The position numbers and the translations under genes are program-made. The notes beneath the pieces were generated by a model that was not told the DNA's origin, did not search any database, and worked only from the letters and a program-made list of their open reading frames with translations. Positions 1 to 36,261 of a DNA stretch of 64,000 bases are shown piece by piece. Positions within the stretch are counted from its first letter, which is position 1. The number at the start of each line of letters is the position of its first letter. Source of the DNA: Trichopria drosophilae (taxonomy: Eukaryota > Arthropoda > Insecta > Hymenoptera > Diapriidae); contig CM059585.1 in NCBI GenBank assembly GCA_030407085.1, positions 5,015,001 through 5,079,000 on the forward strand. The letters are read 5' to 3'.

Positions 1-3000
1 CAGTCAAAAAGCCAACAATTATTATACCAGCAGTCAAACCCCGGCAGCTAGTATATCGGCGGTCAAAAAATTGACAGTTGTTGTGCCGGCAGTCAACCCC
101 CGGCGGTAATTATGCTGGCGGTCAAAAATCTGGCAGTTGTTATACTGATGGTCAAAAAACTGACAGTTGTTATACCGGCAGTCAACCCCCCGGCGGTTAT
201 TATACTGGCGGTCAAAATCTGACAGTTGTTACACGGGCGATCAAAAAACTGACAGTTATTATACCGGCCGTAAAAAAACCGACAGTTATTATACCAGCAG
301 TCAAAAAGCCAACAATTATTATACCAGCAGTCAAACCCCGGCAGTTATTATACCGGCGGTCAAAAAATTGACAGTTGTTGTGCCGGCAGTCAACCCCCCG
401 GCGGTAATTATGCTGGCGGTCAAAAATCTGGCAGTTGTTATACTGATGGTCAAAAAACTGACAGTTGCTATACCGGCAGTCAACACCCCGGCGGTTATTA
501 TACTGGCGGTCAAAATCTGACAGTTGTTACACGGGCGATCAAAAAACTGACAGTTGTTATACCGGCAGTCAGAAACCCGACGGTTATTATACCGGCGGTC
601 AAAAAACTGACAGTTGTTATGCCGGAAGACAAAACCCCGACGGTTATTATACCGACGGTAAAAAAACTGACAGTCGTTATACCGGCAGTCAAAACCCCCC
701 AACGGTTATTATACTGGAGGTCAAAAAACTGACAGTTGTTATACTGGCGGTCAAAAAACTGACAGTTGTCATACCGGCAGTCAAAAACCGACAGGTATTA
801 TAACGTCGGACAAAAACTGACAGTTGTTATACCGGCAGTCAAAACCCCCCAACGGTTATTATACTGGCGGTAAAAAAACTGACAGTTGTTATACTGGCGG
901 TCAAAAATCTGACAGTTGTTATACTGGTGGTAATAAAACTGACAGTTGTTATCCCGGCAGTCAACCTCCCGGCGGTTATTATACTGGCGGTCAAAAATCT
1001 GACAGTTGTTATACTGGCAGTCAAAAAACCAAAAGTTATTATACCGGCCGTAAAAAAACCGACAGTTATTATACCAGCAGTCAAAAAGCCAACAATTATT
1101 ATACCAGCAGTCAAACCCCGGCAGTTATTATACCGGCGGTCAAAAAATTGACAGTTGTTGTGCCGGCAGTCAACCCCCCGGCGGTCAAAAATCTGGCAGT
1201 TGTTATACTGATGGTCAAAAAACTGACAGTTGCTATACCGGCAGTCAACCCCCCGGCGGTTATTATACTGGCGGTCAAAATCTGACAGTTGATACACGGG
1301 CGATCAAAAAACTGACAGTTGGTATACCGGCGGTCAGAAACCCGACGGTTATTATACCGGCGGTCAAAAAACTGACAGTTGTTATGCCGGAAGACAAAAC
1401 CCCGACGGTTATTATACCGACGGTAAAAAAACTGACAGTCGTTATACCGGCAGTCAAAACCCCCCAACGGTTATTATACTGGCGGTAAAAAAACTGACAG
1501 TTGTTATACTGGCGGTCAAAAATCTGACAGTTGTTATACTGGTGGTAATAAAACTGACAGTTGTTATCCCGGCAGTCAACCTCCCGGCGGTTATTATACT
1601 GGCGGTCAAAAATCTGACAGTTGTTATACTGGCGGTCAAAAAACTGACAGGTGTTATACCGGCAGTCAACACGGCGGCGGTTATTATACTGGCGGTCAAA
1701 AATCTGACAGTGGTTTATACTGGCGGTCAAAAATCTGACAGTTGTTATACTGGTGGTCAAAAAACTGACAGTTGTTATACTGGCAGTCGAAAATCTGACA
1801 GTTGTTATACTGGCGGTCAAAAAACTGACAGTTGTCATACCGGCAGTCAAAAACCTACAGGTATTATACCATCGGTCAAAAACTGACAGTTGTTATACCG
1901 GCAGTCAAAACCCCCAACGGTTATTATACTGGCGGTCAAAAGACTGACAGTTGTTATACTGGCGGTCAAAAATCTGACAGTTGTTATACTGGCGGTCAAA
2001 AAACTGATAGTTGATATACCGGCAGTCAACCCCCCTGCGGTTATTATACTGGCGGTCAAAAATCTGACTGTTGTTATACTGGCGGTCAAAAAACTGACAG
2101 TTGTTATACTGGCGGTCAAAAAACTGACAGTTGTTATACCGGCAGTAAAAAAACCGACCGGTACTATACCGTCGGTCAAAAACTGACAGTTGTTATACCG
2201 GCAGTCAAAACCCCCCAACGGTTATTATACTGGCAGTCGAAAATCTGACAGTTGTTATACTGGCGGTCAAAAAACTGACAGTTGTTATACTGGCGGTCAA
2301 AAACCTGATAGTTGTTATACAGCGGGTCAAAACCCTTACGGTTATTATACTGGCGGTCAAAAATCTGACAGTTGTTATACTGGCGGTCAAAAAACTGACA
2401 GTTGTCATACCGGCAGTCAAAAACCGAAAGGTATTATATCGTCGGTCAAAAACTGACAGTTGTTATACCGGCAGTCAAAACCCCCCAACGGTTATTATAC
2501 TGGCGGTCAAAAAACTGACAGTTGTTATACTGGCGGTCAAAAATCTGACAGTTGTTATACTGGCGGTCAAAAAACTGATAGTTGATATACGGGCAGTCAA
2601 CCCCCCTGCGGTTATTATACTGGCGGTCAAAAATCTGACAGTTGTTATACTGGCGGTCAAAAAACTGATAGTTGATATACCGGCAGTCAACCCCCCTGCG
2701 GTTATTATACTGGCGGTCAAAAATCTGACAGTTGTTATACCGGCAGTAAAAAAACCGACCGGTACTATACCGTCGGTCAAAAACTGACAGTTGTTATACC
2801 GGCAGTAAAAAAACCGACCGGTACTATACCGTCGGTCAAAAACTGACAGTTGTTATACCGACAGTCAAAAACCGACAACTATTGTGCCGGCCGTCAAAAG
2901 CCCAACGGTTATTATAATGGTGGTAAAAAATTTGACAGTTGTTATACCGGCAGTAAAAACTGACAGATATTATACCGGCGATCAAAAACGGACAGTTGTT

Positions 3001-3225
3001 ATACTGGCAGTCAACCCCCGGCAGTTATTGTGCCGGCAGTCAAACCCGACCGTTATTGTGCCGGCAGCCAAAAACTGACGGTTGTTATACAGGCAGTCGG
3101 TGCAGTTATTATATAGTCAGTCAAGAGCCGACAGTTGTTATACCGGCCATCAAAACCCGACAGTTTTTATACCGGCAGTCAAAAAACGACAGTTATTATA
3201 CCGGTAGTCAAAAAGTAGACTCATC
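1..3225. repeat. Satellite A: 30 bp tandem array made of two 15 bp half-units
   Basis: This is a near-continuous tandem array with a 30 bp period that runs off the left edge of the window. Each 30 bp unit is two diverged 15 bp halves, of the type CCGACAGTTATTATA and CCAGCAGTCAAAAAG. Variant units, for example those with GTCAACCCCCCGGCGG, recur at about 300 bp and 780 bp spacing, which shows higher-order amplification. Because 30 is a multiple of three and the unit lacks stops in two frames per strand, long pseudo-ORFs with a 10-residue period appear on both strands. I see no start context, splice structure or domain and infer that they are not genes. The unit closely resembles the 15 bp subrepeats inside the MITE at 62357-62588, the likely source. 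Confidence 0.95.
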
Positions 3226-3330
3226 GTCCAGAGAAGTCATTTTTAGCTGTCGGTCTTTTTACTGTTGGCTTTTCGGTTGTTGGATTCGTGATTGTCGGTT
3301 TTTTGATTTGTCGGTTTTTTACCGGCACCC
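3226..3330. mobile_element. Right arm of the MITE in which satellite A expanded
   Basis: Just after the array comes a segment whose word order matches the centre and right arm of the MITE at 62357-62588. It has a TAGACTCATCGTC junction (TAGACACATCGTC in the relative), then CTGTCGG, repeated GTCGGTTTTT words, TTTGATTTGTCGG, and a terminal GGCACCC (CGCACCC in the relative). The left arm must lie beyond the window. If the relative's 8 bp target duplication holds here, the other end should be flanked by AACAAATT. Confidence 0.8.
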
Positions 3331-4794: not shown

Positions 4795-5772
4795 CGATTG
4801 ATAAAATTTACTCAGTGTAAATTCTGTGTAAAACCTACGCTATAAAATTAACTCGTACGATTGTAACGTTTTGTATTGAAAGATGCAAATGCAATATGAA
4901 TTTCTGTATTTTGCAATAAATCTACTGATAACGATCGATAATAGAGAGTGTTCATAATTTTGATCGTTCGCTATTGATAATATGAAAATTTAATAATTGT
5001 AAATTTCATCGATATCACTTTAAAAAAAAAAGAAGAATTGTGACAATCATAACAAAAAACTGTATTACCTAAAGCTGGAAGTGGCCATACCCCAATAACG
5101 AGTTTATTGTTTTGCTGCCAGTGCGTTTTAGACATTCCGAATTTCAACATCCGTCACTTTTGATAACACCTACTCCGATCCAAAGTATCCAAATCATCCA
5201 AGCTCCAATCAATCTGTATAAAACCAAATGAACTGTACCTGTATTGTACTTTGTACTATACCAGGCCCAAGAGGAGAATACACCACTGTGTATGTATGTG
5301 TTGATTCAATAGGTACAATTAAGGGAAGGCCTGAATCAGTCATTAAAAGGATGGGATAATATTCTGGGGAACATGAAAAATGTAGTATGTACACCAACCG
5401 TAGGGTGACGCATTCATCCATTTTGCGTCGATCGACCGCCATTATGTATATATGGCCGCCGCACCTTTCATTCTTTCCGACGCATTTGCCGGAGGTCCTC
5501 ATTTTTCTTTTCATTCTTTTTCGAAAGATTTTGTAATTGGTGTATATTCTATTCTGCAATTACATGAAACGAAAACTTCACCGCCGAAATTCAGCTGCAA
5601 CGTTCCATCAAAAGTTAGTATATTACTCTTTTACCGGTAAAATATTTACAATATAATTTATTAAAATTATAGATTTTTTGTTGAAGTAAATTTCTCAAAA
5701 TTCGACTAAAATATGCATAATTTCGATTTGATACACGAGAGAAATTGAATTTTGAGAATCCATTAGGAACTA
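4795..5772. other. Unassigned spacer with a less AT-rich island
   Basis: The first part is AT-rich. From about 5040 to 5560 base composition is more balanced and there are short open frames on both strands (60-120 codons). None shows a domain I recognise or convincing splice sites. It could be a decayed exon or transposon fragment; I cannot say which. Confidence 0.4.
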
Positions 5773-6057
5773 CACTGTAAAAAGTGTAAATGGAATTTAC
5801 AATTTTGTTGTGATTTTCATGCCAAAAAATATGGTGATATTCCCACGTTTAAAAATTTCCTACGGGAGGTTAGGAATTTCAGAACGATTTGTAAATTCCC
5901 TAAAAAAAATGAATTTTACAAACTCATTGTGATTTTCATTTTATATAAATTTGGTAATATTCCTACACTGTAAAAAATTAGTAATGAAATAACCCACGTA
6001 TAATGGTAATTTTACAAGCTTGTTGTAATTTCCCTACGCTTAATGTAGGGTGAAATA
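5773..6057. mobile_element. Two left ends of CACTGTAAAAA-family MITEs
   Basis: Terminus-like words CACTGTAAAAAGTGTAAATG (from 5773) and CACTGTAAAAAATTAGTAAT (from 5966) are each preceded by TA. They match the left terminus of the complete element that follows but lack matching right ends, so they look like truncated or nested insertions. Confidence 0.65.
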
Positions 6058-6770
6058 CACTGTAAAAAATAGTAATGAATTTTACCACCTTAAGCGTAAG
6101 CAATTATATGACCAACGCTAAGCGTAGCGATTTTACATAGTTTTTATTGTAAATTTACCATCTTATGTGAAGTTCCTTTTCGTCTTTGTAAAATTTCTAA
6201 GTAAAGTTGTAAATTTACAACACCGTATTAAAATTCAAAAAATGCAGTAATATTGTCACGCAGAGTGTATTAAATTTACCCATGTACGTTGTAAATTTAC
6301 AACAAAATATTAAAATTGTAGGTTATCCAGCTCGAAGATCTTATACACTAGACGGGCCGATCAATGAATTTCGCACTTTAATCCTGTATTTTTCCTATCA
6401 GAATGTACATTTAACATGTAATCGGTAATATTACAATTTTTAAATGTAAATTTACAATTAACTTAGAATTTTTACAATGACTATGTGTATTTTTACAAAA
6501 TCCTGTATTTTTCCCTCGAGTGGTAAAATTACCCCGCGTGGTAAGTCTACAGTTATGACCAACGTACAGTGTAGTACTTTTACAGCGCGTTGTAATTTTC
6601 CTGCTTTCAGCGTAGTACATTCACAACCGTGTCTGGTAAATTCACAAAAACGTTGTAAAATCCCAAACCTCAAGTGGTAAAAACCCTACGCTACATGTGG
6701 GAAATGTTGCCAAATTTGCACCCATGAAAATTACAATCAGTTGTAAAATTCATTACCATTTTTTACAGTG
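6058..6770. mobile_element. Complete CACTGTAAAAAAT-family MITE (about 713 bp)
   Basis: The left end CACTGTAAAAAATAGTAATG and the right end, whose complement reads CACTGTAAAAAATGGTAATG, form inverted termini. Both sides are flanked by TA (6056-6057 and 6771-6772), as expected of Tc1/mariner-like target duplication. The interior is rich in GTAAAATTAC, CTACGCT and TTTACAA words in both orientations. This word set also underlies satellite B. No transposase ORF is present. Confidence 0.8.
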
Positions 6771-7547
6771 TAGTGTTTTTACTATTTGAGGTTAGGATTT
6801 TTACAATATTTTTTGAAAGCAAATTTTAGAGCTATAATCTTTTGTCAATAGTAAAACTCTTGTTGAAAAGAAACATTAAATTTAAATTCTTTTGTTGATA
6901 GTAGAACTTTGATCGAAAACAAATTTTAGAGCTATAATCTTTTGTCGATAAAACTTTGTTGAAAGAAAACATTAAATCATAAAATCTAAATTCATAAATT
7001 ATTAAAATAACTAATTATTATTACAAGCCACTGCAATTGGTTCAGGATTACGTGCATAAATTTTACCACATAATGTAGAGTTCAAATCACCTGCCCGCAG
7101 GCTATTGAGCTTTAGTACATAACCTAAAATTTTTCCTATATTTTATTGTAAATTTACTATTCTCTTGGAAAATCTGAACCTCTCTACGATGTAATATTAT
7201 CTCAACCTACAAAAACTTTCAATTGTAAATTTACAATTCCAAGTTGACATTTACAAAAGTAATATTATGTAAATTGACAATAATATTGCGTAAAAGTCCT
7301 ACGTGTAGCATGGGCAATATTGGGTCCCATTCTGCAAGTTGTAAACTTACATTTCCATTTTTTAAAGTGTAACGTAGTAATTCAAAAGTTGTAATTGTAC
7401 TTTGTATCAAATATTTGTATTGCGTACAGAAATAACCATACTAAATTTTTATAATATACAGTAAAGATCGCTAAAGGTTCCTGTAAATGCACATGAATTT
7501 ATTAGTTACTTATTTAATTTTATTAAGCAGACACAATTTAGTAGTTA
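6771..7547. other. Spacer with fragments of the same MITE family
   Basis: Contains a right-end-like CCATTTTTTAAAGTGTA near 7350 and scattered TTGTAAATTTACAA words, so at least part is decayed CACTGTAAAAA-family material. About 6780-7000 has two similar TTAGAGCTATAATCTTTTGT blocks, a small duplication. No gene seen. Confidence 0.5.
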
Positions 7548-7930
7548 CACTGTAAAATATCCAGGTGAAATTTACAACGTTAAACGTGGTGAAGATGGAA
7601 CCTACGCTAAATATGGTAATTTCACATTGCGAGCTGTAAAATTACTATGTTAAACGATGCAAAATTACTGCATTTAATGTAGGATTTTTACATTTGCGTT
7701 GTATATTTTTACAAAAATGTTGCTTTATCTCGAATGGTAAAATTACAATTTCGTTTTAAACTGTCGAACCAATGTATAGCGCGGCAATTTGACACCTCCT
7801 TGTAATTTCCCTACGCTCGGTGTAGTAAATGTACATAACCTTTAAAATTACTTCGTTTTTCGTGGGAAAAACCCTATGCTTTACGTGGTAATATTACCAA
7901 TTTTGGTCAATGAATATTACACGAGTTATT
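7548..7930. mobile_element. Unexpanded CACTGTAAAA-family MITE carrying two 23 bp units
   Basis: Left end CACTGTAAAATATCCAGGTG is preceded by TA. At 7636-7681 it holds two consecutive 23 bp units whose shared core is close to GTAAAATTACTACGTTTAAC. The following 7682-7925 segment (GGATTTTTAC, CGTTGTATATTTTTACAAAA, CCTACGCTCGGTGTAGTAAA, GGTAATATTACCAA) matches the sequence after satellite B at 24376-24625 block by block. This element is therefore a near-ideal picture of the parent of satellite B. Confidence 0.75.
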
Positions 7931-7987
7931 TTATTAATTTACAATGTTAAATGTGGTAAAGATGGAGCCTATTTTAAATCGTAAGCT
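7931..7987. mobile_element. Left part of the MITE interrupted by satellite B
   Basis: The segment TTTACAATGTTAAATGTGG through GATGGAGCCTA and TAAGCT parallels 7568-7635 of the neighbouring unexpanded element (TTTACAACGTTAAACGTGG, GATGGAACCTA, GAGCT). It leads straight into the first 23 bp monomer. The matching right part follows the array. Confidence 0.65.
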
Positions 7988-9453
7988 GTAAAGTTTCTAC
8001 GTTTAATGATGTAACATTACTACATTTAACGATGTAAAATTACTACGTTTAATGATGTAAAATTACTACATTTAACGAGGTAAAATTACTACGTTTAACG
8101 ATGTAAAATTACTACATTTAATGATGTAAAGATACTAATGTAAAATTACTACGTTTAACGATGTAAAATTACTACATTTAATGATGTCAAGTTACTAATG
8201 TAAAATTACTACGTTTAACGATGTAAAATTGCTACATTTAACAATGTAAAATTACTACATTTAACGATGTAAAATTACTACGTTTAACGATGTAAAATTA
8301 CTACATTTAACGATGTAAAACTACTACATTTAACGATGTAAAGTTACTAATGTAAAATTACTACGTTTAACGATGTAAAATTACTACATTTAATGATGTA
8401 AAGATACTAATGTAAAATTACTACGTTTAACGATGTAAAATTACTACATTTAACGATGTAAAATTACTACATTTAATGATGTCAAGTTACTACGTTTAAC
8501 GATGTAAAATTACTACATTTTACAATGTAAAATTACTACATTTAACGATGTAAAATTACTACATTTAACGATGTAAAGTTACTAATGTAAAATTACTACG
8601 TTTAACGATGTAAAATTACTACATTTAATGATGTAAAGATACTAATGTAAAATTACTACGTTTAACGATGTAAAATTACTACATTTAACGATGTAAAATT
8701 ACTACATTTAATGATGTCAAGTTACTACGTTTAACGATGTAAAATTACTACATTTTACAATGTAAAATTACTACATTTAACGATGTAAAATTACTACGTT
8801 TAACGATGTAAAATTACAACTAACTTACGTAAAGTTACTGATGTAAAATGACTACGTTTCACGATATAAAGTTACTGATGTAAAATTACTACGTTTCACG
8901 ATGTAAAGTTATTGATGTAAAATTACTACGTTTCACGATGTAAAGTTACTGATGTAAAATTACTACGTTTCACGATGTAAAGTTACTGATGTAAAATTAC
9001 TACGTTTAATGATGTAAAATTACTACGTTTAACGGTGTAAAATTACTACATTTAACGATGTAAAATTACTACGTTTAACGATGTAAAATTACAACGTTTC
9101 ACGATGTAAAGTTACTACGTTTAATGATGTAAAATTACTACGTTTAATGATGTAAAATTACTACGTTTAACGATGTAAAATTACTACATTTAACGATGTA
9201 AAATTACTACGTTTAACGATGTAAAATTACTACGTTTAACGATGTAAAATTACAACGTTTCACGATGTAAAGTTACTAGTGTAAAATTACTACGTTTAAT
9301 GATGTAAAATTACTACGTTTAATGATGTAAAATTACTACGTTTAACGGTGTAAAATTACTACATTTAACGATGTAAAATTACTACGTTTAACGATGTAAA
9401 ATTACTACATTTAACGATGTAAAATTACTACATTTAACGATGTAAAGTTACTA

Positions 9454-9655
9454 TGACGCTGAAGCTAGCAGCAGATTCGCAGCAGCGGATTCCAGGAAAC
9501 TGCGGAAATGGATAATTTCATATTAAAAATTATTTGCATTTAAACATTTTTAGACAAATTTTATACAAATAATTTGTTTTTGGCAATTTTAATGGCTGAA
9601 AACCATAGTTTTTTTTTAATCTGCTGCGGCGAATCTGCTGCTAGCTTCAGCGTCA
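9454..9655. mobile_element. Trapped 202 bp MITE, copy 1
   Basis: Inverted termini TGACGCTGAAGCTAGCAGCA and its complement, flanked by TA (9452-9453, 9656-9657), inside satellite monomers. The interior is AT-rich and non-coding. I infer insertion into one monomer, then amplification with the array. By eye it is identical to copies 2-4. Confidence 0.9.
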
Positions 9656-12600
9656 TAAAGTTACTACGTTTAACGATGTATAACGATGTAAAATTACTAC
9701 GTTTAACGATGTAAAGTTACTAATGTAAAATTACGACGTTTAACGATGTAAAGTTACTAATGTAAAATTACGACGTTTAACGATGTAAAGTTACTAATGT
9801 AAAATTACGACGTTTAACGATGTAAAGTTACTAATGTAAAATTACGACGTTTAACGATGTAAAGTTACTAATGTAAAATTACGACGTTTAACGATGTAAA
9901 GTTACTACATTTAATGATGTAAAATTACTACATTTAAGGATGTAAAGTTACTAGTGTAAAATTACTACGTTTAATGATGTAAAATTACTACGTTTAACGA
10001 TGTAAAATTACTACGTTTAACGATGTAAAATTACTACGTTTAACGATGTAAAATTACAACGTTTCACGATGTAAAGTTACTAGTGTAAAATTACTACGTT
10101 TAACGATGTAAAATTACTACATTTAATGATGTCAAGTTACTACATTTAACGATGTAAAAATACTACGTTTCACGATGTAAAGTTACTGATGTAAAATTAC
10201 TACGTTTCACGATGTAAAGTTACTGATGTAAAATTACTACGTTTCACGATGTAAAGTTACTGATGTAAAATTACTACGTTTCACGATGTAAAGTTACTGA
10301 TGTAAAATTACTGTTTCACGATGTAAAGTTACTGATGTAAAATTACTACGTTTCACGATATAAAGTTACTGATGTAAAATTACTACGTTTCACGATGTAA
10401 AATTACTACATTTAACGATGTAAAATTACTACATTTAATGATGTCAAGTTACTACGTTTAACGATGTAAAATTACTACATTTTACAATGTAAAATTACTA
10501 CATTTAACGATGTAAAATGACTACGTTTCACGATATAAAGTTACTGATGTAAAATTACTACGTTTCACGATGTAAAGTTACTGATGTAAAATTACTACGT
10601 TTCACGATGTAAAGTTACTGATGTAAAATTACTACGTTTAACGGTGTAAAATTACTACATTTAACGATGTAAAATTACTACGTTTAACGATGTAAAATTA
10701 CAACGTTTCACGATGTAAAGTTACTACGTTTAATGATGTAAAATTACTACGTTTAATGATGTAAAATTACTACGTTTAACGATGTAAAATTACTACATTT
10801 AACGATGTAAAATTACTACATTTAACGATGTAAAATTACTACGCTTAACGATGTAAAGTTACTAATGTAAAATTACTACGTTTAACGATGTAAAGTTACT
10901 AATGTAAAATTACTACGTTTAACGATGTAATGTTACTACGTTTAATGATGTAAAATTACTACGTTTAACGATGTAAAATTACTACGTTTAACGATGTAAA
11001 ATTACTACGTTTAACGATGTAAAATTACAACGTTTCACGATGTAAAGTTACTAGTGTAAAATTACTACGTTTAATGATGTAAAATTACTACGTTTAACGA
11101 TGTAAAATTACTACGTTTAACGATGTAAAATTACTACGTTTAACGATGTAAAATTACAACGTTTCACGATGTAAAGTTACTAGTGTAAAATTACTACGTT
11201 TAACGATGTAAAATTACTACATTTAATGATGTCAAGTTACTACGTTTAACGATGTAAAATTACTACATTTTACAATGTAAAATTACTACATTTAACGATG
11301 TAAAATTACTACGTTTAACGATGTAAAATTACTACATTTAACAATGTAAAATTACTACATTTAACGATGTAAAAATACTACGTTTCACGATGTAAAGTTA
11401 CTGATGTAAAATTACTACGTTTCACGATGTAAAGTTACTGATGTAAAATTACTACGTTTCACGATGTAAAGTTACTGATGTAAAATTACTGTTTCACGAT
11501 GTAAAGTTACTGATGTAAAATTACTACGTTTCACGATATAAAGTTACTGATGTAAAATTACTACGTTTCACGATGTAAAGTTACTGATGTAAAATTACCA
11601 CGTTTCACGATGTAAAGTTACTGATGTAAAATTACTATGTTTCACGATGTAAAGTTACTGATGTAAAATTACTACGTTTAATGATGTAAAATTACTACGT
11701 TTAACGGTGTAAAATTACAACGTTTCACGATGTAAAGTTACTAGTGTAAAATTACTACGTTTAATGATGTAAAATTACTACGTTTAATGATGTAAAATTA
11801 CTACGTTTAATGATGTAAAATTACTACGTTTAACGATGTAAAATTACTACATTTAACGATGTAAAATTACTACGTTTAACGATGTAAAATTACTACGTTT
11901 AACGATGTAAAATTACTACATTTAATGATGTCAAGTTACTACGTTTAACGATGTAAAATTACTACATTTTACAATGTAAAATTACTACATTTAACGATGT
12001 AAAATTACTACGTTTAACGATGTAAAATTACTACATTTAACAATGTAAAATTACTACATTTAACGATGTAAAAATACTACGTTTCACGATGTAAAGTTAC
12101 TGATGTAAAATTACTACGTTTCACGATGTAAAGTTACTGATGTAAAATTACTACGTTTCACGATGTAAAGTTACTGATGTAAAATTACTGTTTCACGATG
12201 TAAAGTTACTGATGTAAAATTACTACGTTTCACGATATAAAGTTACTGATGTAAAATTACTACGTTTCACGATGTAAAGTTACTGATGTAAAATTACCAC
12301 GTTTCACGATGTAAAGTTACTGATGTAAAATTACTATGTTTCACGATGTAAAGTTACTGATGTAAAATTACTACGTTTAATGATGTAAAATTACTACGTT
12401 TAACGGTGTAAAATTACAACGTTTCACGATGTAAAGTTACTAGTGTAAAATTACTACGTTTAATGATGTAAAATTACTACGTTTAATGATGTAAAATTAC
12501 TACGTTTAACGGTGTAAAATTACTACATTTAACGATGTAAAATTACTACGTTTAACGATGTAAAATTACTACATTTAACGATGTAAAACTACTACATTTA

Positions 12601-13316
12601 ACGATGTAAAGTTACTAATGTAAAATTACTACGTTTAACGATGTAAAATTACTACATTTAATGATGTAAAGATACTAATGTAAAATTACTACATTTTACA
12701 ATGTAAAATTACTACATTTAACGATGTAAAATTACTACATTTAACGATGTAAAGTTACTAATGTAAAATTACTACGTTTAACGATGTAAAATTACTACAT
12801 TTAATGATGTAAAGATACTAATGTAAAATTACTACGTTTAACGATGTAAAATTACTACATTTAACGATGTAAAATTACTACATTTAATGATGTCAAGTTA
12901 CTACGTTTAACGATGTAAAATTACTACATTTTACAATGTAAAATTACTACATTTAACGATGTAAAATTACTACGTTTAACGATGTAAAATTACAACTAAC
13001 TTACGTAAAGTTACTGATGTAAAATGACTACGTTTCACGATATAAAGTTACTGATGTAAAATTACTACGTTTCACGATGTAAAGTTATTGATGTAAAATT
13101 ACTACGTTTCACGATGTAAAGTTACTGATGTAAAATTACTACGTTTCACGATGTAAAGTTACTGATGTAAAATTACTACGTTTAATGATGTAAAATTACT
13201 ACGTTTAACGGTGTAAAATTACTACATTTAACGATGTAAAATTACTACGTTTAACGATGTAAAATTACTACATTTAACGATGTAAAATTACTACATTTAA
13301 CGATGTAAAGTTACTA

Positions 13317-13518
13317 TGACGCTGAAGCTAGCAGCAGATTCGCAGCAGCGGATTCCAGGAAACTGCGGAAATGGATAATTTCATATTAAAAATTATTTGC
13401 ATTTAAACATTTTTAGACAAATTTTATACAAATAATTTGTTTTTGGCAATTTTAATGGCTGAAAACCATAGTTTTTTTTTAATCTGCTGCGGCGAATCTG
13501 CTGCTAGCTTCAGCGTCA
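13317..13518. mobile_element. Trapped 202 bp MITE, copy 2
   Basis: Same sequence, orientation and TA-flanked monomer context as the copy at 9454. The shared satellite flanks on both sides show a copied block rather than a fresh insertion. Confidence 0.9.
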
Positions 13519-15366
13519 TAAAGTTACTACGTTTAACGATGTATAACGATGTAAAATTACTACGTTTAACGATGTAAAGTTACTAATGTAAAATTACGAC
13601 GTTTAACGATGTAAAGTTACTAATGTAAAATTACGACGTTTAACGATGTAAAGTTACTAATGTAAAATTACGACGTTTAACGATGTAAAGTTACTAATGT
13701 AAAATTACGACGTTTAACGATGTAAAGTTACTAATGTAAAATTACGACGTTTAACGATGTAAAGTTACTACATTTAATGATGTAAAATTACTACATTTAA
13801 GGATGTAAAGTTACTAGTGTAAAATTACTACGTTTAATGATGTAAAATTACTACGTTTAACGATGTAAAATTACTACGTTTAACGATGTAAAATTACTAC
13901 ATTTAACGATGTAAAATTACTACGTTTAACGATGTAAAATTACTACGTTTAACGATGTAAAATTACTACATTTAATGATGTCAAGTTACTACGTTTAACG
14001 ATGTAAAATTACTACATTTTACAATGTAAAATTACTACATTTAACGATGTAAAATTACTACGTTTAACGATGTAAAATTACTACATTTAACAATGTAAAA
14101 TTACTACATTTAACGATGTAAAAATACTACGTTTCACGATGTAAAGTTACTGATGTAAAATTACTACGTTTCACGATGTAAAGTTACTGATGTAAAATTA
14201 CTACGTTTCACGATGTAAAGTTACTGATGTAAAATTACTGTTTCACGATGTAAAGTTACTGATGTAAAATTACTACGTTTCACGATATAAAGTTACTGAT
14301 GTAAAATTACTACGTTTCACGATGTAAAGTTACTGATGTAAAATTACCACGTTTCACGATGTAAAGTTACTGATGTAAAATTACTATGTTTCACGATGTA
14401 AAGTTACTGATGTAAAATTACTACGTTTAATGATGTAAAATTACTACGTTTAACGGTGTAAAATTACAACGTTTCACGATGTAAAGTTACTAGTGTAAAA
14501 TTACTACGTTTAATGATGTAAAATTACTACGTTTAATGATGTAAAATTACTACGTTTAACGGTGTAAAATTACTACATTTAACGATGTAAAATTACTACG
14601 TTTAACGATGTAAAATTACTACATTTAACGATGTAAAACTACTACATTTAACGATGTAAAGTTACTAATGTAAAATTACTACGTTTAACGATGTAAAATT
14701 ACTACATTTAATGATGTAAAGATACTAATGTAAAATTACTACATTTTACAATGTAAAATTACTACATTTAACGATGTAAAATTACTACATTTAACGATGT
14801 AAAGTTACTAATGTAAAATTACTACGTTTAACGATGTAAAATTACTACATTTAATGATGTAAAGATACTAATGTAAAATTACTACGTTTAACGATGTAAA
14901 ATTACTACATTTAACGATGTAAAATTACTACATTTAATGATGTCAAGTTACTACGTTTAACGATGTAAAATTACTACATTTTACAATGTAAAATTACTAC
15001 ATTTAACGATGTAAAATTACTACGTTTAACGATGTAAAATTACAACTAACTTACGTAAAGTTACTGATGTAAAATGACTACGTTTCACGATATAAAGTTA
15101 CTGATGTAAAATTACTACGTTTCACGATGTAAAGTTATTGATGTAAAATTACTACGTTTCACGATGTAAAGTTACTGATGTAAAATTACTACGTTTCACG
15201 ATGTAAAGTTACTGATGTAAAATTACTACGTTTAATGATGTAAAATTACTACGTTTAACGGTGTAAAATTACTACATTTAACGATGTAAAATTACTACGT
15301 TTAACGATGTAAAATTACTACATTTAACGATGTAAAATTACTACATTTAACGATGTAAAGTTACTA

Positions 15367-15568
15367 TGACGCTGAAGCTAGCAGCAGATTCGCAGCAGCG
15401 GATTCCAGGAAACTGCGGAAATGGATAATTTCATATTAAAAATTATTTGCATTTAAACATTTTTAGACAAATTTTATACAAATAATTTGTTTTTGGCAAT
15501 TTTAATGGCTGAAAACCATAGTTTTTTTTTAATCTGCTGCGGCGAATCTGCTGCTAGCTTCAGCGTCA
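15367..15568. mobile_element. Trapped 202 bp MITE, copy 3
   Basis: It lies 2050 bp from copy 2, and at least the 900 bp before each of them correspond closely. After it, the array follows the version seen after copy 1, so blocks have been shuffled. Confidence 0.9.
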
Positions 15569-18500
15569 TAAAGTTACTACGTTTAACGATGTATAACGAT
15601 GTAAAATTACTACGTTTAACGATGTAAAGTTACTAATGTAAAATTACGACGTTTAACGATGTAAAGTTACTAATGTAAAATTACGACGTTTAACGATGTA
15701 AAGTTACTAATGTAAAATTACGACGTTTAACGATGTAAAGTTACTAATGTAAAATTACGACGTTTAACGATGTAAAGTTACTAATGTAAAATTACGACGT
15801 TTAACGATGTAAAGTTACTACATTTAATGATGTAAAATTACTACATTTAAGGATGTAAAGTTACTAGTGTAAAATTACTACGTTTAATGATGTAAAATTA
15901 CTACGTTTAACGATGTAAAATTACTACGTTTAACGATGTAAAATTACTACGTTTAACGATGTAAAATTACAACGTTTCACGATGTAAAGTTACTAGTGTA
16001 AAATTACTACGTTTAACGATGTAAAATTACTACATTTAATGATGTCAAGTTACTACATTTAACGATGTAAAAATACTACGTTTCACGATGTAAAGTTACT
16101 GATGTAAAATTACTACGTTTCACGATGTAAAGTTACTGATGTAAAATTACTACGTTTCACGATGTAAAGTTACTGATGTAAAATTACTACGTTTCACGAT
16201 GTAAAGTTACTGATGTAAAATTACTGTTTCACGATGTAAAGTTACTGATGTAAAATTACTACGTTTCACGATATAAAGTTACTGATGTAAAATTACTACG
16301 TTTCACGATGTAAAATTACTACATTTAACGATGTAAAATTACTACATTTAATGATGTCAAGTTACTACGTTTAACGATGTAAAATTACTACATTTTACAA
16401 TGTAAAATTACTACATTTAACGATGTAAAATGACTACGTTTCACGATATAAAGTTACTGATGTAAAATTACTACGTTTCACGATGTAAAGTTACTGATGT
16501 AAAATTACTACGTTTCACGATGTAAAGTTACTGATGTAAAATTACTACGTTTAACGGTGTAAAATTACTACATTTAACGATGTAAAATTACTACGTTTAA
16601 CGATGTAAAATTACAACGTTTCACGATGTAAAGTTACTACGTTTAATGATGTAAAATTACTACGTTTAATGATGTAAAATTACTACGTTTAACGATGTAA
16701 AATTACTACATTTAACGATGTAAAATTACTACATTTAACGATGTAAAATTACTACGCTTAACGATGTAAAGTTACTAATGTAAAATTACTACGTTTAACG
16801 ATGTAAAGTTACTAATGTAAAATTACTACGTTTAACGATGTAATGTTACTACGTTTAATGATGTAAAATTACTACGTTTAACGATGTAAAATTACTACGT
16901 TTAACGATGTAAAATTACTACGTTTAACGATGTAAAATTACAACGTTTCACGATGTAAAGTTACTAGTGTAAAATTACTACGTTTAATGATGTAAAATTA
17001 CTACGTTTAACGATGTAAAATTACTACGTTTAACGATGTAAAATTACTACGTTTAACGATGTAAAATTACAACGTTTCACGATGTAAAGTTACTAGTGTA
17101 AAATTACTACGTTTAACGATGTAAAATTACTACATTTAATGATGTCAAGTTACTACGTTTAACGATGTAAAATTACTACATTTTACAATGTAAAATTACT
17201 ACATTTAACGATGTAAAATTACTACGTTTAACGATGTAAAATTACTACATTTAACAATGTAAAATTACTACATTTAACGATGTAAAAATACTACGTTTCA
17301 CGATGTAAAGTTACTGATGTAAAATTACTACGTTTCACGATGTAAAGTTACTGATGTAAAATTACTACGTTTCACGATGTAAAGTTACTGATGTAAAATT
17401 ACTGTTTCACGATGTAAAGTTACTGATGTAAAATTACTACGTTTCACGATATAAAGTTACTGATGTAAAATTACTACGTTTCACGATGTAAAGTTACTGA
17501 TGTAAAATTACCACGTTTCACGATGTAAAGTTACTGATGTAAAATTACTATGTTTCACGATGTAAAGTTACTGATGTAAAATTACTACGTTTAATGATGT
17601 AAAATTACTACGTTTAACGGTGTAAAATTACAACGTTTCACGATGTAAAGTTACTAGTGTAAAATTACTACGTTTAATGATGTAAAATTACTACGTTTAA
17701 TGATGTAAAATTACTACGTTTAACGATGTAAAATTACTACATTTAACGATGTAAAATTACTACGTTTAACGATGTAAAATTACTACGTTTAACGATGTAA
17801 AATTACAACGTTTCACGATGTAAAGTTACTAGTGTAAAATTACTACGTTTAATGATGTAAAATTACTACGTTTAATGATGTAAAATTACTACGTTTAATG
17901 ATGTAAAATTACTACGTTTAACGATGTAAAATTACTACATTTAACGATGTAAAATTACTACGTTTAACGATGTAAAATTACTACGTTTAACGATGTAAAA
18001 TTACTACATTTAATGATGTCAAGTTACTACGTTTAACGATGTAAAATTACTACATTTTACAATGTAAAATTACTACATTTAACGATGTAAAATTACTACG
18101 TTTAACGATGTAAAATTACTACATTTAACAATGTAAAATTACTACATTTAACGATGTAAAAATACTACGTTTCACGATGTAAAGTTACTGATGTAAAATT
18201 ACTACGTTTCACGATGTAAAGTTACTGATGTAAAATTACTACGTTTCACGATGTAAAGTTACTGATGTAAAATTACTACGTTTCACGATATAAAGTTACT
18301 GATGTAAAATTACTACGTTTCACGATGTAAAGTTACTGATGTAAAATTACCACGTTTCACGATGTAAAGTTACTGATGTAAAATTACTATGTTTCACGAT
18401 GTAAAGTTACTGATGTAAAATTACTACGTTTAATGATGTAAAATTACTACGTTTAACGGTGTAAAATTACAACGTTTCACGATGTAAAGTTACTAGTGTA

Positions 18501-20670
18501 AAATTACTACGTTTAATGATGTAAAATTACTACGTTTAATGATGTAAAATTACTACGTTTAACGGTGTAAAATTACTACATTTAACGATGTAAAATTACT
18601 ACGTTTAACGATGTAAAATTACTACATTTAACGATGTAAAACTACTACATTTAACGATGTAAAGTTACTAATGTAAAATTACTACGTTTAACGATGTAAA
18701 ATTACTACATTTAATGATGTAAAGATACTAATGTAAAATTACTACATTTTACAATGTAAAATTACTACATTTAACGATGTAAAATTACTACATTTAACGA
18801 TGTAAAGTTACTAATGTAAAATTACTACGTTTAACGATGTAAAATTACTACATTTAATGATGTAAAGATACTAATGTAAAATTACTACGTTTAACGATGT
18901 AAAATTACTACATTTAACGATGTAAAATTACTACATTTAATGATGTCAAGTTACTACGTTTAACGATGTAAAATTACTACATTTTACAATGTAAAATTAC
19001 TACATTTAACGATGTAAAATTACTACGTTTAACGATGTAAAATTACAACTAACTTACGTAAAGTTACTGATGTAAAATGACTACGTTTCACGATATAAAG
19101 TTACTGATGTAAAATTACTACGTTTCACGATGTAAAGTTATTGATGTAAAATTACTACGTTTCACGATGTAAAGTTACTGATGTAAAATTACTACGTTTC
19201 ACGATGTAAAGTTACTGATGTAAAATTACTGTTTCACGATGTAAAGTTACTGATGTAAAATTACTACGTTTCACGATATAAAGTTACTGATGTAAAATTA
19301 CTACGTTTCACGATGTAAAGTTACTGATGTAAAATTACCACGTTTCACGATGTAAAGTTACTGATGTAAAATTACTATGTTTCACGATGTAAAGTTACTG
19401 ATGTAAAATTACTACGTTTAATGATGTAAAATTACTACGTTTAACGGTGTAAAATTACAACGTTTCACGATGTAAAGTTACTAGTGTAAAATTACTACGT
19501 TTAATGATGTAAAATTACTACGTTTAATGATGTAAAATTACTACGTTTAACGGTGTAAAATTACTACATTTAACGATGTAAAATTACTACGTTTAACGAT
19601 GTAAAATTACTACATTTAACGATGTAAAACTACTACATTTAACGATGTAAAGTTACTAATGTAAAATTACTACGTTTAACGATGTAAAATTACTACATTT
19701 AATGATGTAAAGATACTAATGTAAAATTACTACATTTTACAATGTAAAATTACTACATTTAACGATGTAAAATTACTACATTTAACGATGTAAAGTTACT
19801 AATGTAAAATTACTACGTTTAACGATGTAAAATTACTACATTTAATGATGTAAAGATACTAATGTAAAATTACTACGTTTAACGATGTAAAATTACTACA
19901 TTTAACGATGTAAAATTACTACATTTAATGATGTCAAGTTACTACGTTTAACGATGTAAAATTACTACATTTTACAATGTAAAATTACTACATTTAACGA
20001 TGTAAAATTACTACGTTTAACGATGTAAAATTACAACTAACTTACGTAAAGTTACTGATGTAAAATGACTACGTTTCACGATATAAAGTTACTGATGTAA
20101 AATTACTACGTTTCACGATGTAAAGTTATTGATGTAAAATTACTACGTTTCACGATGTAAAGTTACTGATGTAAAATTACTACGTTTCACGATGTAAAGT
20201 TACTGATGTAAAATTACTACGTTTAATGATGTAAAATTACTACGTTTAACGGTGTAAAATTACTACATTTAACGATGTAAAATTACTACGTTTAACGATG
20301 TAAAATTACAACGTTTCACGATGTAAAGTTACTACGTTTAATGATGTAAAATTACTACGTTTAATGATGTAAAATTACTACGTTTAACGATGTAAAATTA
20401 CTACATTTAACGATGTAAAATTACTACGTTTAACGATGTAAAATTACTACGTTTAACGATGTAAAATTACAACGTTTCACGATGTAAAGTTACTAGTGTA
20501 AAATTACTACGTTTAATGATGTAAAATTACTACGTTTAATGATGTAAAATTACTACGTTTAACGGTGTAAAATTACTACATTTAACGATGTAAAATTACT
20601 ACGTTTAACGATGTAAAATTACTACATTTAACGATGTAAAATTACTACATTTAACGATGTAAAGTTACTA

Positions 20671-20872
20671 TGACGCTGAAGCTAGCAGCAGATTCGCAGC
20701 AGCGGATTCCAGGAAACTGCGGAAATGGATAATTTCATATTAAAAATTATTTGCATTTAAACATTTTTAGACAAATTTTATACAAATAATTTGTTTTTGG
20801 CAATTTTAATGGCTGAAAACCATAGTTTTTTTTTAATCTGCTGCGGCGAATCTGCTGCTAGCTTCAGCGTCA
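20671..20872. mobile_element. Trapped 202 bp MITE, copy 4
   Basis: By eye identical to copies 1-3, with the same monomer junctions on both sides, including the GATGTATAACGATG double motif just downstream. Confidence 0.9.
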
Positions 20873-23513
20873 TAAAGTTACTACGTTTAACGATGTATAA
20901 CGATGTAAAATTACTACGTTTAACGATGTAAAGTTACTAATGTAAAATTACGACGTTTAACGATGTAAAGTTACTAATGTAAAATTACGACGTTTAACGA
21001 TGTAAAGTTACTAATGTAAAATTACGACGTTTAACGATGTAAAGTTACTAATGTAAAATTACGACGTTTAACGATGTAAAGTTACTAATGTAAAATTACG
21101 ACGTTTAACGATGTAAAGTTACTACATTTAATGATGTAAAATTACTACATTTAAGGATGTAAAGTTACTAGTGTAAAATTACTACGTTTAATGATGTAAA
21201 ATTACTACGTTTAACGATGTAAAATTACTACGTTTAACGATGTAAAATTACAACGTTTCACGATGTAAAGTTACTAGTGTAAAATTACTACGTTTAACGA
21301 TGTAAAATTACTACATTTAATGATGTCAAGTTACTACATTTAACGATGTAAAAATACTACGTTTCACGATGTAAAGTTACTGATGTAAAATTACTACGTT
21401 TCACGATGTAAAGTTACTGATGTAAAATTACTACGTTTCACGATGTAAAGTTACTGATGTAAAATTACTACGTTTCACGATGTAAAGTTACTGATGTAAA
21501 ATTACTGTTTCACGATGTAAAGTTACTGATGTAAAATTACTACGTTTCACGATATAAAGTTACTGATGTAAAATTACTACGTTTCACGATGTAAAATTAC
21601 TACATTTAACGATGTAAAATTACTACATTTAATGATGTCAAGTTACTACGTTTAACGATGTAAAATTACTACATTTTACAATGTAAAATTACTACATTTA
21701 ACGATGTAAAATGACTACGTTTCACGATATAAAGTTACTGATGTAAAATTACTACGTTTCACGATGTAAAGTTACTGATGTAAAATTACTACGTTTCACG
21801 ATGTAAAGTTACTGATGTAAAATTACTACGTTTAACGGTGTAAAATTACTACATTTAACGATGTAAAATTACTACGTTTAACGATGTAAAATTACAACGT
21901 TTCACGATGTAAAGTTACTACGTTTAATGATGTAAAATTACTACGTTTAATGATGTAAAATTACTACGTTTAACGATGTAAAATTACTACATTTAACGAT
22001 GTAAAATTACTACATTTAACGATGTAAAATTACTACGCTTAACGATGTAAAGTTACTAATGTAAAATTACTACGTTTAACGATGTAAAGTTACTAATGTA
22101 AAATTACTACGTTTAACGATGTAATGTTACTACGTTTAATGATGTAAAATTACTACGTTTAACGATGTAAAATTACTACGTTTAACGATGTAAAATTACT
22201 ACGTTTAACGATGTAAAATTACAACGTTTCACGATGTAAAGTTACTAGTGTAAAATTACTACGTTTAATGATGTAAAATTACTACGTTTAACGATGTAAA
22301 ATTACTACGTTTAACGATGTAAAATTACTACGTTTAACGATGTAAAATTACAACGTTTCACGATGTAAAGTTACTAGTGTAAAATTACTACGTTTAACGA
22401 TGTAAAATTACTACATTTAATGATGTCAAGTTACTACGTTTAACGATGTAAAATTACTACATTTTACAATGTAAAATTACTACATTTAACGATGTAAAAT
22501 TACTACGTTTAACGATGTAAAATTACTACATTTAACAATGTAAAATTACTACATTTAACGATGTAAAAATACTACGTTTCACGATGTAAAGTTACTGATG
22601 TAAAATTACTACGTTTCACGATGTAAAGTTACTGATGTAAAATTACTACGTTTCACGATGTAAAGTTACTGATGTAAAATTACTGTTTCACGATGTAAAG
22701 TTACTGATGTAAAATTACTACGTTTCACGATATAAAGTTACTGATGTAAAATTACTACGTTTCACGATGTAAAGTTACTGATGTAAAATTACCACGTTTC
22801 ACGATGTAAAGTTACTGATGTAAAATTACTATGTTTCACGATGTAAAGTTACTGATGTAAAATTACTACGTTTAATGATGTAAAATTACTACGTTTAACG
22901 GTGTAAAATTACAACGTTTCACGATGTAAAGTTACTAGTGTAAAATTACTACGTTTAATGATGTAAAATTACTACGTTTAATGATGTAAAATTACTACGT
23001 TTAACGATGTAAAATTACTACATTTAACGATGTAAAATTACTACGTTTAACGATGTAAAATTACTACGTTTAACGATGTAAAATTACAACGTTTCACGAT
23101 GTAAAGTTACTAGTGTAAAATTACTACGTTTAATGATGTAAAATTACTACGTTTAATGATGTAAAATTACTACGTTTAACGATGTAAAATTACTACATTT
23201 AACGATGTAAAAATACTACGTTTCACGATGTAAAGTTACTGATGTAAAATTACTACGTTTCACGATGTAAAGTTACTGATGTAAAATTACTACGTTTCAC
23301 GATGTAAAGTTACTGATGTAAAATTACTACGTTTAATGATGTAAAATTACTACGTTTATAGGTGTAAAATTACTACATTTAGCGATGTAAAATTACTACG
23401 TTTAACGATGTAAAATTACTACATTTAACGATGTAAAATTACTACGTTTAACGATGTAAAATTACTACGTTTAACGATGTAAAATTACTACGTTTAACGA
23501 TGTAAAGTTACTA

Positions 23514-23715
23514 TGACGCTGAAGCTAGCAGCAGATTCGCAGCAGCGGATTCCAGAAAACTGCGGAAATGGATAATTTCATATTAAAAATTATTTGCATT
23601 TAAACATTTTTAGACAAATTTTATACAAATAATTTGTTTTTGGCAATTTTAATGGCTGAAAACCATAGTTTTTTTTTAATCTGCTGCTGCGAATCTGCTG
23701 CTAGCTTCAGCGTCA
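23514..23715. mobile_element. Trapped 202 bp MITE, copy 5 (diverged edge copy)
   Basis: Differs from the others by two visible substitutions (CCAGAAAAC for CCAGGAAAC, and CTGCTGCTGCG for CTGCTGCGGCG). It sits near the right edge, where monomers are also more varied, consistent with weaker homogenisation there. Confidence 0.9.
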
Positions 23716-24375
23716 TAAAGTTACTACGATTAACGATGTATAACGATGTAAAATTACTACGTTTAACGATGTAAAGTTACTAATGTAAAATTACTACGTT
23801 TAACGATGTAAAGTTACTAATGTAAAATTACTACGTTTAACGATGTAAAGTTACTAATGTAAAATTACTACGTTTAACGATGTAAAGTTACTAATGTAAA
23901 ATTACGACGTTTAACGATGTAAAGTTACTACATTTAATGATGTAAAATTACTACATTTAACGATGTAAAGTTACTAATGTAAAATTACTACGTTTAACGA
24001 TATAAAGTTACTAATGTAAAATTACTACGTTTAACGATGTAAAGTTACTAATGTAAAATTACTACGTTTAACGATGTAAAGTTACTACTCTTTAACGATG
24101 TAAAATTACTACTTTTAACGATCTAAAATTACTATATTTAACGATGTATAACGATGTATAATTACTACGTTTGACGATGTAAAGTTACTAATGTAAAATT
24201 ACTACGTTTAATGATGTAAAATTACTACGTTTAACGATGTAAAGTTACTACGTTTAATTATGTAAAATTACTATGTTTAATGATGTAAAATTACTACGTT
24301 TAACGATGTAAAATTACTACATTTAACGATGTAAAGTTACTACGTTTAACGATGTAAAATTACTACTTTTAATGT

Positions 24376-24625
24376 AAGATTTTTATATTTGTGTTGTGTA
24401 TTTTTACAAAATCATGTATTTTTCCTCTCCAACTGTAAAATTACAGTTGTAGAGTAAAGTTAGTGAATGTGGTAATTTTACACCTCGCTGTAAAATTCCT
24501 ACGCTTTTTGTAGTAAATTGACATAACCTTGTAAAATTCATCTTGTTTTTTGGGAAAATCCATACATTTTATGTAGTAATATTACCAAGTTTTTGGCAAG
24601 GAAAATTACGATTGTAAAATTCACC
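24376..24625. mobile_element. Right part of the MITE interrupted by satellite B
   Basis: Matches 7682-7925 in the same orientation: AGATTTTTATATTTGTGTTG, TTTTTACAAAATC, CCTACGCTTTTTGTAGTAAA, TTGACATAACCTTGTAAAAT and GTAGTAATATTACCAA appear in the same order. The terminal inverted repeat itself is not clearly preserved. Confidence 0.7.
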
Positions 24626-24792
24626 AGGATAAGATCGATTTATGTTTGTAATATTCTTATGAAGGTGTGATTTAAGAATGTCTTAATCTAGTTTGTGAAT
24701 AATTATACATAAAGTTTGATCCACCAGTATCCATCGCTAGAGTTAGTAGATGTCTAGTATTATATGAATAATATCTCCTTGGAAAAAGACTT

Positions 24793-34711: not shown

Positions 34712-36261
34712 CTATTTATTTATAAACGGACTGTAAGTCCTTGAATAAAATGTTACAATACATAAATATCCAAAATATTACATAAAAATAATACAAAAAT
34801 AGACGCTGAACAGTTGCACAGGTAATAATATAAAATAATAAAAATTTTCAAGAATAAAATGTACAAAAAATAATAGTGCCAGCATTAACGAGACTAATAC
34901 AAGTGTACAAAATAAAATAAAATTTAAAACTTAAACAGACATAAATATAAACAGAAAATAAGACGCGATACAGTGAATATAAAGTAATATAAAACGCACC
35001 GAATAAATAAAAAACAAAAGATTTAATCATAATATTTGTACACGATACGCACATTACGTTTAAAAGTAGCTAATGAATTAGTCGCACGGGTAGTAACATT
35101 AAGACTATTCCAGACACGCTTAAGGCGAGCGACAGGATAATTAAATATATAATTCGATCTGCATAAAGATTCCTGAAGTGTTCTGTGATTACGGAAAGAA
35201 TAAGAAAGGACACGAGAAGGGAATAATGACGATAAATTAAAAAGTTCTGGTGAGTGTAGAATTCGGAAAACAGTTAACGCATCGTGATATCGGTGAATTG
35301 AGCTGATAGTAGGAAAATTAAAATTGAGAGCTATATCGTGATAACTGTGATTAAAACGGGACATTGGGTTCCCTGATTTAAATGACAGATAACGAAGTGC
35401 TCTCCTTTGCACTCCTTCTAAAAGATCAATATCCGAAAGCGTGTATGGTGACCAGATCGGAGCTGCGTAGACTAAATGTGGCAAAACAAGAACTCGTATG
35501 AGGTGTGAGATCGTTAAAGGATTTTTAAAGTCCTTGGTAGATCTTTGAATAAAGCCCAGCATCTTTGATGCTTTGGACCGTGCATTTAATAAATGGTCCT
35601 GAAACGTGAATTTATTGGACATAGTAACACCCAGATCAGTGATGTGATAAACTCTAAGTAATGGCACATTAAGTAAGCAATAATTATATAAAAATTTGTC
35701 AGACCTTCGTGAAAAAGATATAATATTGCACTTAGAAATATTTAAGTTCAAACCTCCTTTTAAGTTCAAAGTTCCTCTTAGACCACGCCTCAACTGAGTT
35801 TAGATCCTTCTGAAGATTTGATGCATCTAAAGGTGATCGGATTAAATTAAAAATTTTGATGTCATCAGCATAAATCAGGAATTTTGAAAACTTTATAATT
35901 TGACCAATGTCATTAATGAAAAGGTTGAACAAAATTGGACCCAGATGGGATCGCTGTGGTACACCCGAAGGAACAATACAAGGATCCGATCTGATGTTTT
36001 TTATTCTAACCCTTTGGATTCTACCAGACAAATAGGATTCGATCCATCTCAGAAATGGGCCCGAAAAGCCAAGGTCATTTAATTTGCATAAAAGCAAGGA
36101 ATGGTTGACACTATCAAAAGCCTTCGAGAAATCTAAGTAGATCGAATCCACCTGACTATAAGACTCGATTGCTCCAGATACAAAATCGGAAAATAATAGC
36201 AAATTAGTTGTTGTCGATTTGCTTTTACAAAAGCCATGTTGGTTCTCTACAATAATATCTG
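34712..36261 (-). pseudogene. 5'-truncated jockey/CR1-type non-LTR retrotransposon
   Basis: Minus-strand frames at 35732-36261 and 35023-35793 together cover the polymerase from NQHGFCKSKSTTTNLL through DFSKAFDSVNH, SGVPQRSHLGPILFN, FLIYADDIKIF (catalytic ADD) and, after a frameshift, FQDHLLNARSKASKMLGFIQ to the C-terminal VARLKRVWNSL. The frameshift near 35740-35790 sits at a local duplication that turns one ELK segment into two (FELKRRFELK). The endonuclease and 5' half are missing. Downstream (34712-35022) is a 3' untranslated stretch ending in TAAATAAA-like sequence. The element lies inside an older plus-strand relative. I found no clear target-site duplication. Confidence 0.88.

Follow-up and report, generated by a model that had tools for sequence, protein, structure and literature searches.

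How does a long tandem array begin, and can the state from which it grew still be read? The origins of satellites are usually unreadable, because the array erases its own origin and spreads. The question is raised here by a 64,000-nt window (the whole stretch analysed: positions 5,015,001 to 5,079,000 of contig CM059585.1, Trichopria drosophilae assembly GCA_030407085.1), in which a 16.4-kb array of short units is framed by the two parts of a miniature inverted-repeat transposable element (MITE) and lies beside a second MITE. Our results support the view that the array grew inside its MITE from an internal 23-bp unit, as an earlier note on this DNA had claimed from the sequence, and that the framing parts belong to a dispersed, TA-flanked MITE family. 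They do not support the same note's view of the neighbouring MITE as the two-unit ancestor, or tandem twin, of the expanded copy. Coordinates refer to the window, with + and - marking the strand where one is given; the assembly searched comprised 936 Mb in 509 contigs. The parts of the locus are as follows.

7546..7930, +, neighbouring element (MITE1), of another, older-looking subfamily (terminal inverted repeat [TIR] scans and subfamily comparison)
7546-7577, +, complete left TIR of MITE1, after TA; the right TIR of MITE1 is missing
7636..7681, +, two 23-bp units of MITE1
7931..7986, +, 56-bp left remnant of the expanded MITE (COPY2), left TIR missing
7987..24375, +, array of ~23-bp and ~14-bp units with five nested inserts (segmentation and Tandem Repeats Finder)
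24376..24631, +, right part of COPY2, with a terminal right TIR lacking its outer part

The array lies inside a MITE

Both borders of the array match MITE1 in the order and orientation that the earlier note had described. On the right, 24375-24609 aligns to 7680-7920 at 73.6% identity and scores 163 (none of 500 dinucleotide shuffles scored above 33), which places the flank well above background in the alignment test that the note had named; on the left, 7936-7979 aligns to 7569-7612 at 84% (score 53, maximum 25 in 500 shuffles). Two MITE copies thus do lie head to tail at this locus, and in the alignment the first array unit is in register with unit 1 of MITE1 and the last with unit 2. The statement that MITE1 holds exactly two units is right for well-kept units, but weak extra ones exist: two at ≥15/23 matches in its body (7682-7930; 2.5% of 200 shuffles reach this) and three in the right flank (0.5% of 200 shuffles). 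Likewise, an expansion to several hundred units stands, while the proposed factor of about 300 is nearer 370-fold over two units.

The host family has the features of a MITE, namely TIRs, a TA target duplication, and short, dispersed copies without coding capacity of their own. A related element upstream (element A) illustrates how the family is built. With respect to the Tc1/mariner superfamily, the feature observed is the TA target.

6056..6772, +, element A, a related MITE with TIRs matching at 31/33 positions and TA at both ends; an outgroup copy (COPY0) sits inside it, with two degenerate unit-like stretches near 6425-6467

None of 2000 shuffles reached the TIR match of element A. At the expanded locus, 7558-7580 matches 24608-24631 at 21/24 positions, with only the inner part of the repeat present on the right; 0/2000 mononucleotide and 1/2000 dinucleotide shuffles reached this match, and only the left TA survives. 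By eye, both ends are visible in the dispersed copies L009, L011, and L012, with TA on both sides in L011 and L012 and on the right side only in L009. Sizes range from ~0.4 kb (L012, by eye) to 0.7 kb (element A), and no open frame of at least 110 aa (stop to stop) occurs in 5771-7930 or 24376-24631. A search of the window against Rfam returned nothing at the gathering threshold, and pattern scans gave 0 matches to the unit pair in viral contigs and prokaryote genome contigs and 0 matches to the TIR and insert end in viral contigs, the sole set scanned for these two. A derivation of the satellite unit from the TIR was considered and rejected, the likeness being weak: 1.5 and 2.3% of 1000 shuffles reached it in two of six comparisons and 19-80% in the other four.

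Two near-palindromic words, TGTAAAATTAC and TGTAAATTTAC, are over-represented in either orientation in 5771-7930 and 24376-24631 (14-43 per kb, vs 0.8-2.8 in controls), and TGTAAAATTAC occurs 0 times in the 56-bp left remnant. These words are perhaps transposase-binding sites.

Dispersed copies form a ladder of unit counts

A genome search with the right flank yielded 46 matches among the 40 scored of 329 candidates. We fetched 39 of the 45 other places (L009-L047), the remaining six lying inside fetched stretches. Other copies of the MITE were sought by unit count, as the earlier note had proposed, and 27/39 could be sorted automatically into copies carrying 0, 1, 2, or 3 units, with anchor-to-anchor lengths close to 2, 22, 45, or 68 bases, respectively. 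One copy has no unit (L047), 12 have one, 12 have two, and two were called as three (L031 and L012), although L012 by eye holds two units and a TTAGG-like insert. The other 12 copies remained unsorted because an anchor was eroded, missing, or displaced; among these, inspection by eye found one unit in L018 and L045 and two in L028, L034, L037, and L039.

Most of the other copies examined thus carry only one or two 23-bp units, and no uninterrupted run of more than five units at ≥18/23 matches occurs in the 226,098 bases of L009-L047. L040 (G000:C3:105051100-105052613) is a small independent expansion in which, by eye, a third MITE interrupts the seven units; another unit block follows, and the copy has an end variant of its own. 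In the left part of L018 (G000:C2:21271222-21281087), a different internal segment of ~27 bp is repeated in roughly 16 copies by eye, and one 23-bp unit is kept.

Near-consensus unit dimers are concentrated in the array itself. A 46-base unit dimer, allowing ≤3 mismatches, had 279 genome matches and 0 in the reversed control; 268 of the 279 fall inside the array, and the 11 outside comprise three forward and eight reverse matches. Seven of these 11 are listed, three of them in the fetched two-unit copies L026, L028, and L037; the four others listed lie in unfetched places and end in the second-unit junction (AATGT) or one like it. Given this concentration, no other array was seen in the assembly, although arrays lost from the assembly could escape such a search.

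The array probably grew in units and then in kilobase blocks

Segmentation resolved the array into 749 units, 551 of ~23 bp and 198 of ~14 bp, the 14-mer being the 23-mer minus 9 bp, and left two bases unassigned, both at the far end of the segmented stretch. The most frequent unit, TGTAAAATTACTACGTTTAACGA, occurs in 119 copies. The array also contains five 202-bp inserts (MITE2), which were absent from the earlier note's account. The inserts, the repeated blocks, and the array edges are listed below.

7987..8502, +, left edge of the array, outside exact 12-unit duplicates, with 5/17 single-copy units
9300..17723, +, 2511-bp exact repeat (9300-11810 = 15213-17723)
9454..9655, +, MITE2 copy 1, with inverted ends of 27 matching bp and TA on each side
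11812..15911, +, exact head-to-tail duplication of a 2050-bp block (identity over 2089 bp at an offset of 2050)
13317..13518, +, MITE2 copy 2, identical to copy 1
15367..15568, +, MITE2 copy 3, identical to copy 1
18243..20218, +, exact head-to-tail duplication of a 988-bp block
20671..20872, +, MITE2 copy 4, identical to copy 1
23160..24375, +, right edge of the array, outside exact 12-unit duplicates, with 12/17 single-copy units
23514..23715, +, MITE2 copy 5, with two differences

The insert is itself MITE-like, given its inverted ends and the TA on both sides. Four copies are identical, including 30 bp on either side, and the fifth, closest to the right edge, has two differences; the simplest reading is that MITE2 inserted once and was then multiplied together with the array. 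Elsewhere, a stretch like the ends of MITE2 lies beside the unit slot of another copy of the host MITE (L016).

Growth of the array continued recently through kilobase-scale duplication. Blocks of 2511, 2089, 1987, 1812, and 1533 bp are repeated without any difference, and two duplications lie directly head to tail (periods 2050 and 988 bp). When 9300-15212 and 15213-21125 were aligned unit by unit, 227/228 aligned units were identical, with four gaps, and three further comparisons gave 92/93, 113/113, and 65/67 identical units. The junctions are mostly in register, since 711/749 units have a length of exactly 23 bp (524) or 14 bp (187), which is a better sign of register than the gaps in these comparisons.

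This turnover did not reach the edges. Exact 12-unit duplicates hold 679 of 756 pieces and exclude only 7987-8502 and 23160-24380. All 17 single-copy units lie in these two edges, which contain 74 of the 749 units, with 14 of them no more than 400 bp from an array end, in a zone of 38 units; the restriction holds partly by construction, because duplicated units cannot be single-copy. The centre has been turned over and is therefore young, while the edges have not and retain their single-copy units. A young centre with older edges is the pattern that unequal exchange would leave.

As to what the array should be called, it is long, homogenised, and head-to-tail (749 units in 16.4 kb), as satellite DNA is, but it lacks the abundance in many or large loci that the term also implies, one locus accounting for 268/279 dimer matches. 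The stricter name is a single-locus satellite-like array or a long minisatellite.

The neighbouring MITE belongs to another subfamily

The relationship of MITE1 to the expanded copy was assessed in a set of 32 dispersed copies (the 39 fetched, minus six with poor left ends and minus L040) together with MITE1 and COPY2. Over the right flank, the identity of COPY2 is 84-86% with the eight dispersed copies nearest to it (best 86.4%) and 74.3% with MITE1, the lowest-scoring of the 33 relatives; this low rank is independent of the recruitment of copies by likeness to the expanded one. MITE1 instead has a relative in L029, where 1216-1549 matches its right part at 165/183 positions, and the two form a clade with support of 0.915. 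At 26 columns that set MITE1 and L029 apart from ≥80% of the other copies, COPY2 carries the common letter at 23 and that of MITE1 at one. Of the letters in the units of MITE1, A18 (unit 1) and C3 and G13 (unit 2) occur in 0 of 524 array units and T14 in nine, and stretches with T14, A18, and C3 recur in L029 by eye.

In the trees, COPY2 falls among the dispersed copies and MITE1 outside them. A clade of 32 has support of 0.91 and 0.82 in the two trees, and COPY2 has as its nearest relative the two-unit copy L044 on contig C5 (modest support, 0.74-0.80). The earlier note had expected the two units of MITE1 to fall outside the array monomers in a monomer tree; they fall inside, in different classes, which tells against the claim in that form, but an alignment of 23 columns has little power, and units inherited by class would likewise fall inside. 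That MITE1 is not the ancestor follows from the subfamily evidence, which is stronger than the monomer tree.

Proposed history and alternative explanations

We propose that COPY2, a member of a TA-inserting MITE family carrying one or, more likely, two 23-bp units, landed beside the older MITE1 of another subfamily, and that a deletion presumably removed the facing ends of both later on. The unit in COPY2 would then have multiplied in small steps, giving 23-mers, the 9-bp-shorter 14-mer, and stretches mixing the two, after which MITE2 would have inserted once into the array. Finally, blocks of ~1-6 kb containing the insert would have been duplicated, by unequal exchange or an equivalent process of repair or replication, with the unit register kept. 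We consider this history, taken as a whole, to be very probable. Within it, the position of the array, the unit ladder of the family, the subfamily difference, uniqueness in the assembly, the exact kilobase blocks, and the edge pattern are observed; the two-unit seed, the enzyme-level mechanism, and the order of the early steps are, like the deletion, deduced. As for the seed, MITE1 and the outgroup COPY0 both have two units, and two is therefore favoured, without proof, as the older state of the family. A founding dimer of G and A units was considered and set aside. Although G and A alternate through the first six units, each shared position is a CpG site, and there are too few data.

Several observations weigh against this history or limit it. 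The dispersed copies were recruited by likeness to the flank of COPY2 itself, and only 40 of 329 candidates were scored. Support for the clade uniting COPY2 with the 32 dispersed copies is 0.87 in one tree and 0.49 in the other. Over the 56-bp left remnant, MITE1 ranks 5th of 33, so that the left side does not separate the subfamilies. The flank branch of COPY2 is long (best match 86%), which leaves the onset of expansion undated. Mapped on the tree, seeds of one and two units cost 13 changes each, and a seed of three costs 12, but only through the coding of L012 as a three-unit copy. Within the array, the rightmost part is less uniform (116/129 aligned units identical between 15912-21192 and 21193-24100), and the gaps in the unit-level comparisons are whole units by construction. 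The length of the array is that of the assembly and may be mis-assembled.

The last point can be put more strongly, as the view that the true array is shorter and that its assembled length and kilobase duplications are mostly artefacts, since exact blocks of 2511 to 1533 bp could come from a mis-resolved repeat graph. We regard this as unlikely: the block offsets differ (5913, 2050, 5281, and 988), alignment of the stretches compared requires gaps several units long, and two differences are private to the fifth insert, which simple repetition by an assembler would not predict; the ladder and the flanks are, moreover, independent of array length. It is quite unlikely, too, that the MITE was a carrier rather than a birthplace, having captured a pre-existing satellite or received an existing array by recombination, a capture model that a review credits to Scalvenzi and Pollet. 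Degenerate TGTAAAATTAC words, at 14-43 per kb in 5771-7930 and the right flank vs 0.8-2.8 in five control stretches, speak for it, and with MITE bodies so rich in them, the family may have acquired repeats long ago. Yet no other array was seen in the assembly (268/279 near-consensus dimers are here), and the array occupies exactly the unit slot of the family.

Two further readings would tie MITE1 and COPY2 more closely. Were they tandem copies of one MITE, with MITE1 preserving the two-unit state from which COPY2 expanded, then their adjacency and shared orientation, the register of the first and last units, the high rank of MITE1 over the left remnant, and position 15, at which unit 1 of MITE1 has G, unit 2 has A, and the array has both, would all find an explanation. 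However, both shared differences (positions 15 and 21) fall at CpG sites, where the same change readily recurs, and the last rank of MITE1 over the right flank, its single diagnostic site against 23 of 26, and the absence of A18, C3, and G13 from 524 array units speak against this reading. Such an ancestry is highly improbable and is already refuted, unless the entire right flank was replaced through gene conversion from the dispersed subfamily. Alternatively, the locus could be one insertion that underwent partial internal duplication, bounded on the left by the TIR of MITE1 and on the right by that of COPY2. The 21/24 TIR match across the locus first suggested this, and each half, taken by itself, lacks a TIR pair (634 and 63 of 2000 shuffles score as high); but near-identical TIR sequence is present in the dispersed copies, and the diagnostic sites, which assign the halves to different subfamilies, tell against this reading, which is extremely improbable.

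Returning to the growth of the array within COPY2, its cause may be sought in its setting. In the assembly, only the copy without transposition ends, fused to an older MITE, reached 749 units. Whether loss of mobility, or the presence of several related MITEs within 2 kb, licenses satellite growth, with two units as a sufficient seed, is a suggestion that we hold to be doubtful.

Other elements in the window

A second case is present in the same window. An array of 30-bp units (1-3214), whose left border lies beyond the window, ends in 3152-3330, which aligns to a foldback MITE at 62401-62588 over 139/190 columns (score 108, maximum 41 in 500 shuffles; for the part outside the array, 99 and 35). 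The arms of this foldback MITE (62357-62588) are built of short units related to the 30-bp array. Upstream of MITE1, further related elements occupy 5771-7375, with TIR pairs at 6056/6772 (31/33) and 5771/7371 (30/36), and one MITE may lie inside another there. The remaining features are listed below.

35732-36268, -, reverse transcriptase fragment (RVT_1)
37110-37805, long inverted-repeat (foldback-like) element
40020-40424, -, TM2-domain reading frame
42163-42777, long inverted-repeat (foldback-like) element
43618-44699, long inverted-repeat (foldback-like) element
54846-55187, long inverted-repeat (foldback-like) element
58048-58494, long inverted-repeat (foldback-like) element

Comparison with known systems

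Our literature search found no publication describing this MITE family by name, a weak absence given that papers on the source organism were outside the search, and a search with the TIR word gave nothing on transposons, as judged by titles and abstract openings. That repeats internal to MITEs and related elements turn into satellites is already known, from the accounts consulted of miDNA4, Xstir, and Tetris. In those accounts, miDNA4, from Xenopus tropicalis, is a Tc1/mariner MITE that contains a satellite (Scalvenzi and Pollet 2014; PMC9659126, PMC12628747), and the present family appears to resemble it in that the MITE holds one monomer or a variable number, expanding to arrays within the element. 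It differs in presenting one assembly locus with a long array, MITE parts framing both sides, and a nested second MITE carried along. The Xstir and Xmix MITE arrays of Xenopus (Hikosaka and Kawahara 2004; PMC9659126, PMC12628747), as these sources outline them, are similar in deriving tandem repeats from a MITE interior and in having MITE, array, and composite forms in one genome set, whereas the mechanism proposed for them joins two nearby elements and growth here looks in register within one. In Tetris/TIR-220 of Drosophila virilis, by the portion of the report cited (PMC4079207), repeats already in the element likewise amplify inside it, up to 66 copies, with two alleles of 3 and 4 units; Tetris, however, is a foldback element with 220-bp units in its TIRs, in contrast to the 23-bp units in the interior of a short-TIR MITE here. 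A minisatellite inside a MITE is also described, in what we cite of PMC4596501, for Porphyromonas gingivalis, a case that is alike in this respect and differs in being bacterial.

What is unusual here is completeness: one locus, both flanks, a dispersed ladder that begins at 0 units, and an insert that marks the order of events. The array stands alone in the assembly, remnants of the element in which it was born survive at either end, and the unit number that preceded the take-off can be seen in sister copies, which allows a direct test of what sets the expanded copy apart, be it seed number, unit identity, end loss, or location.

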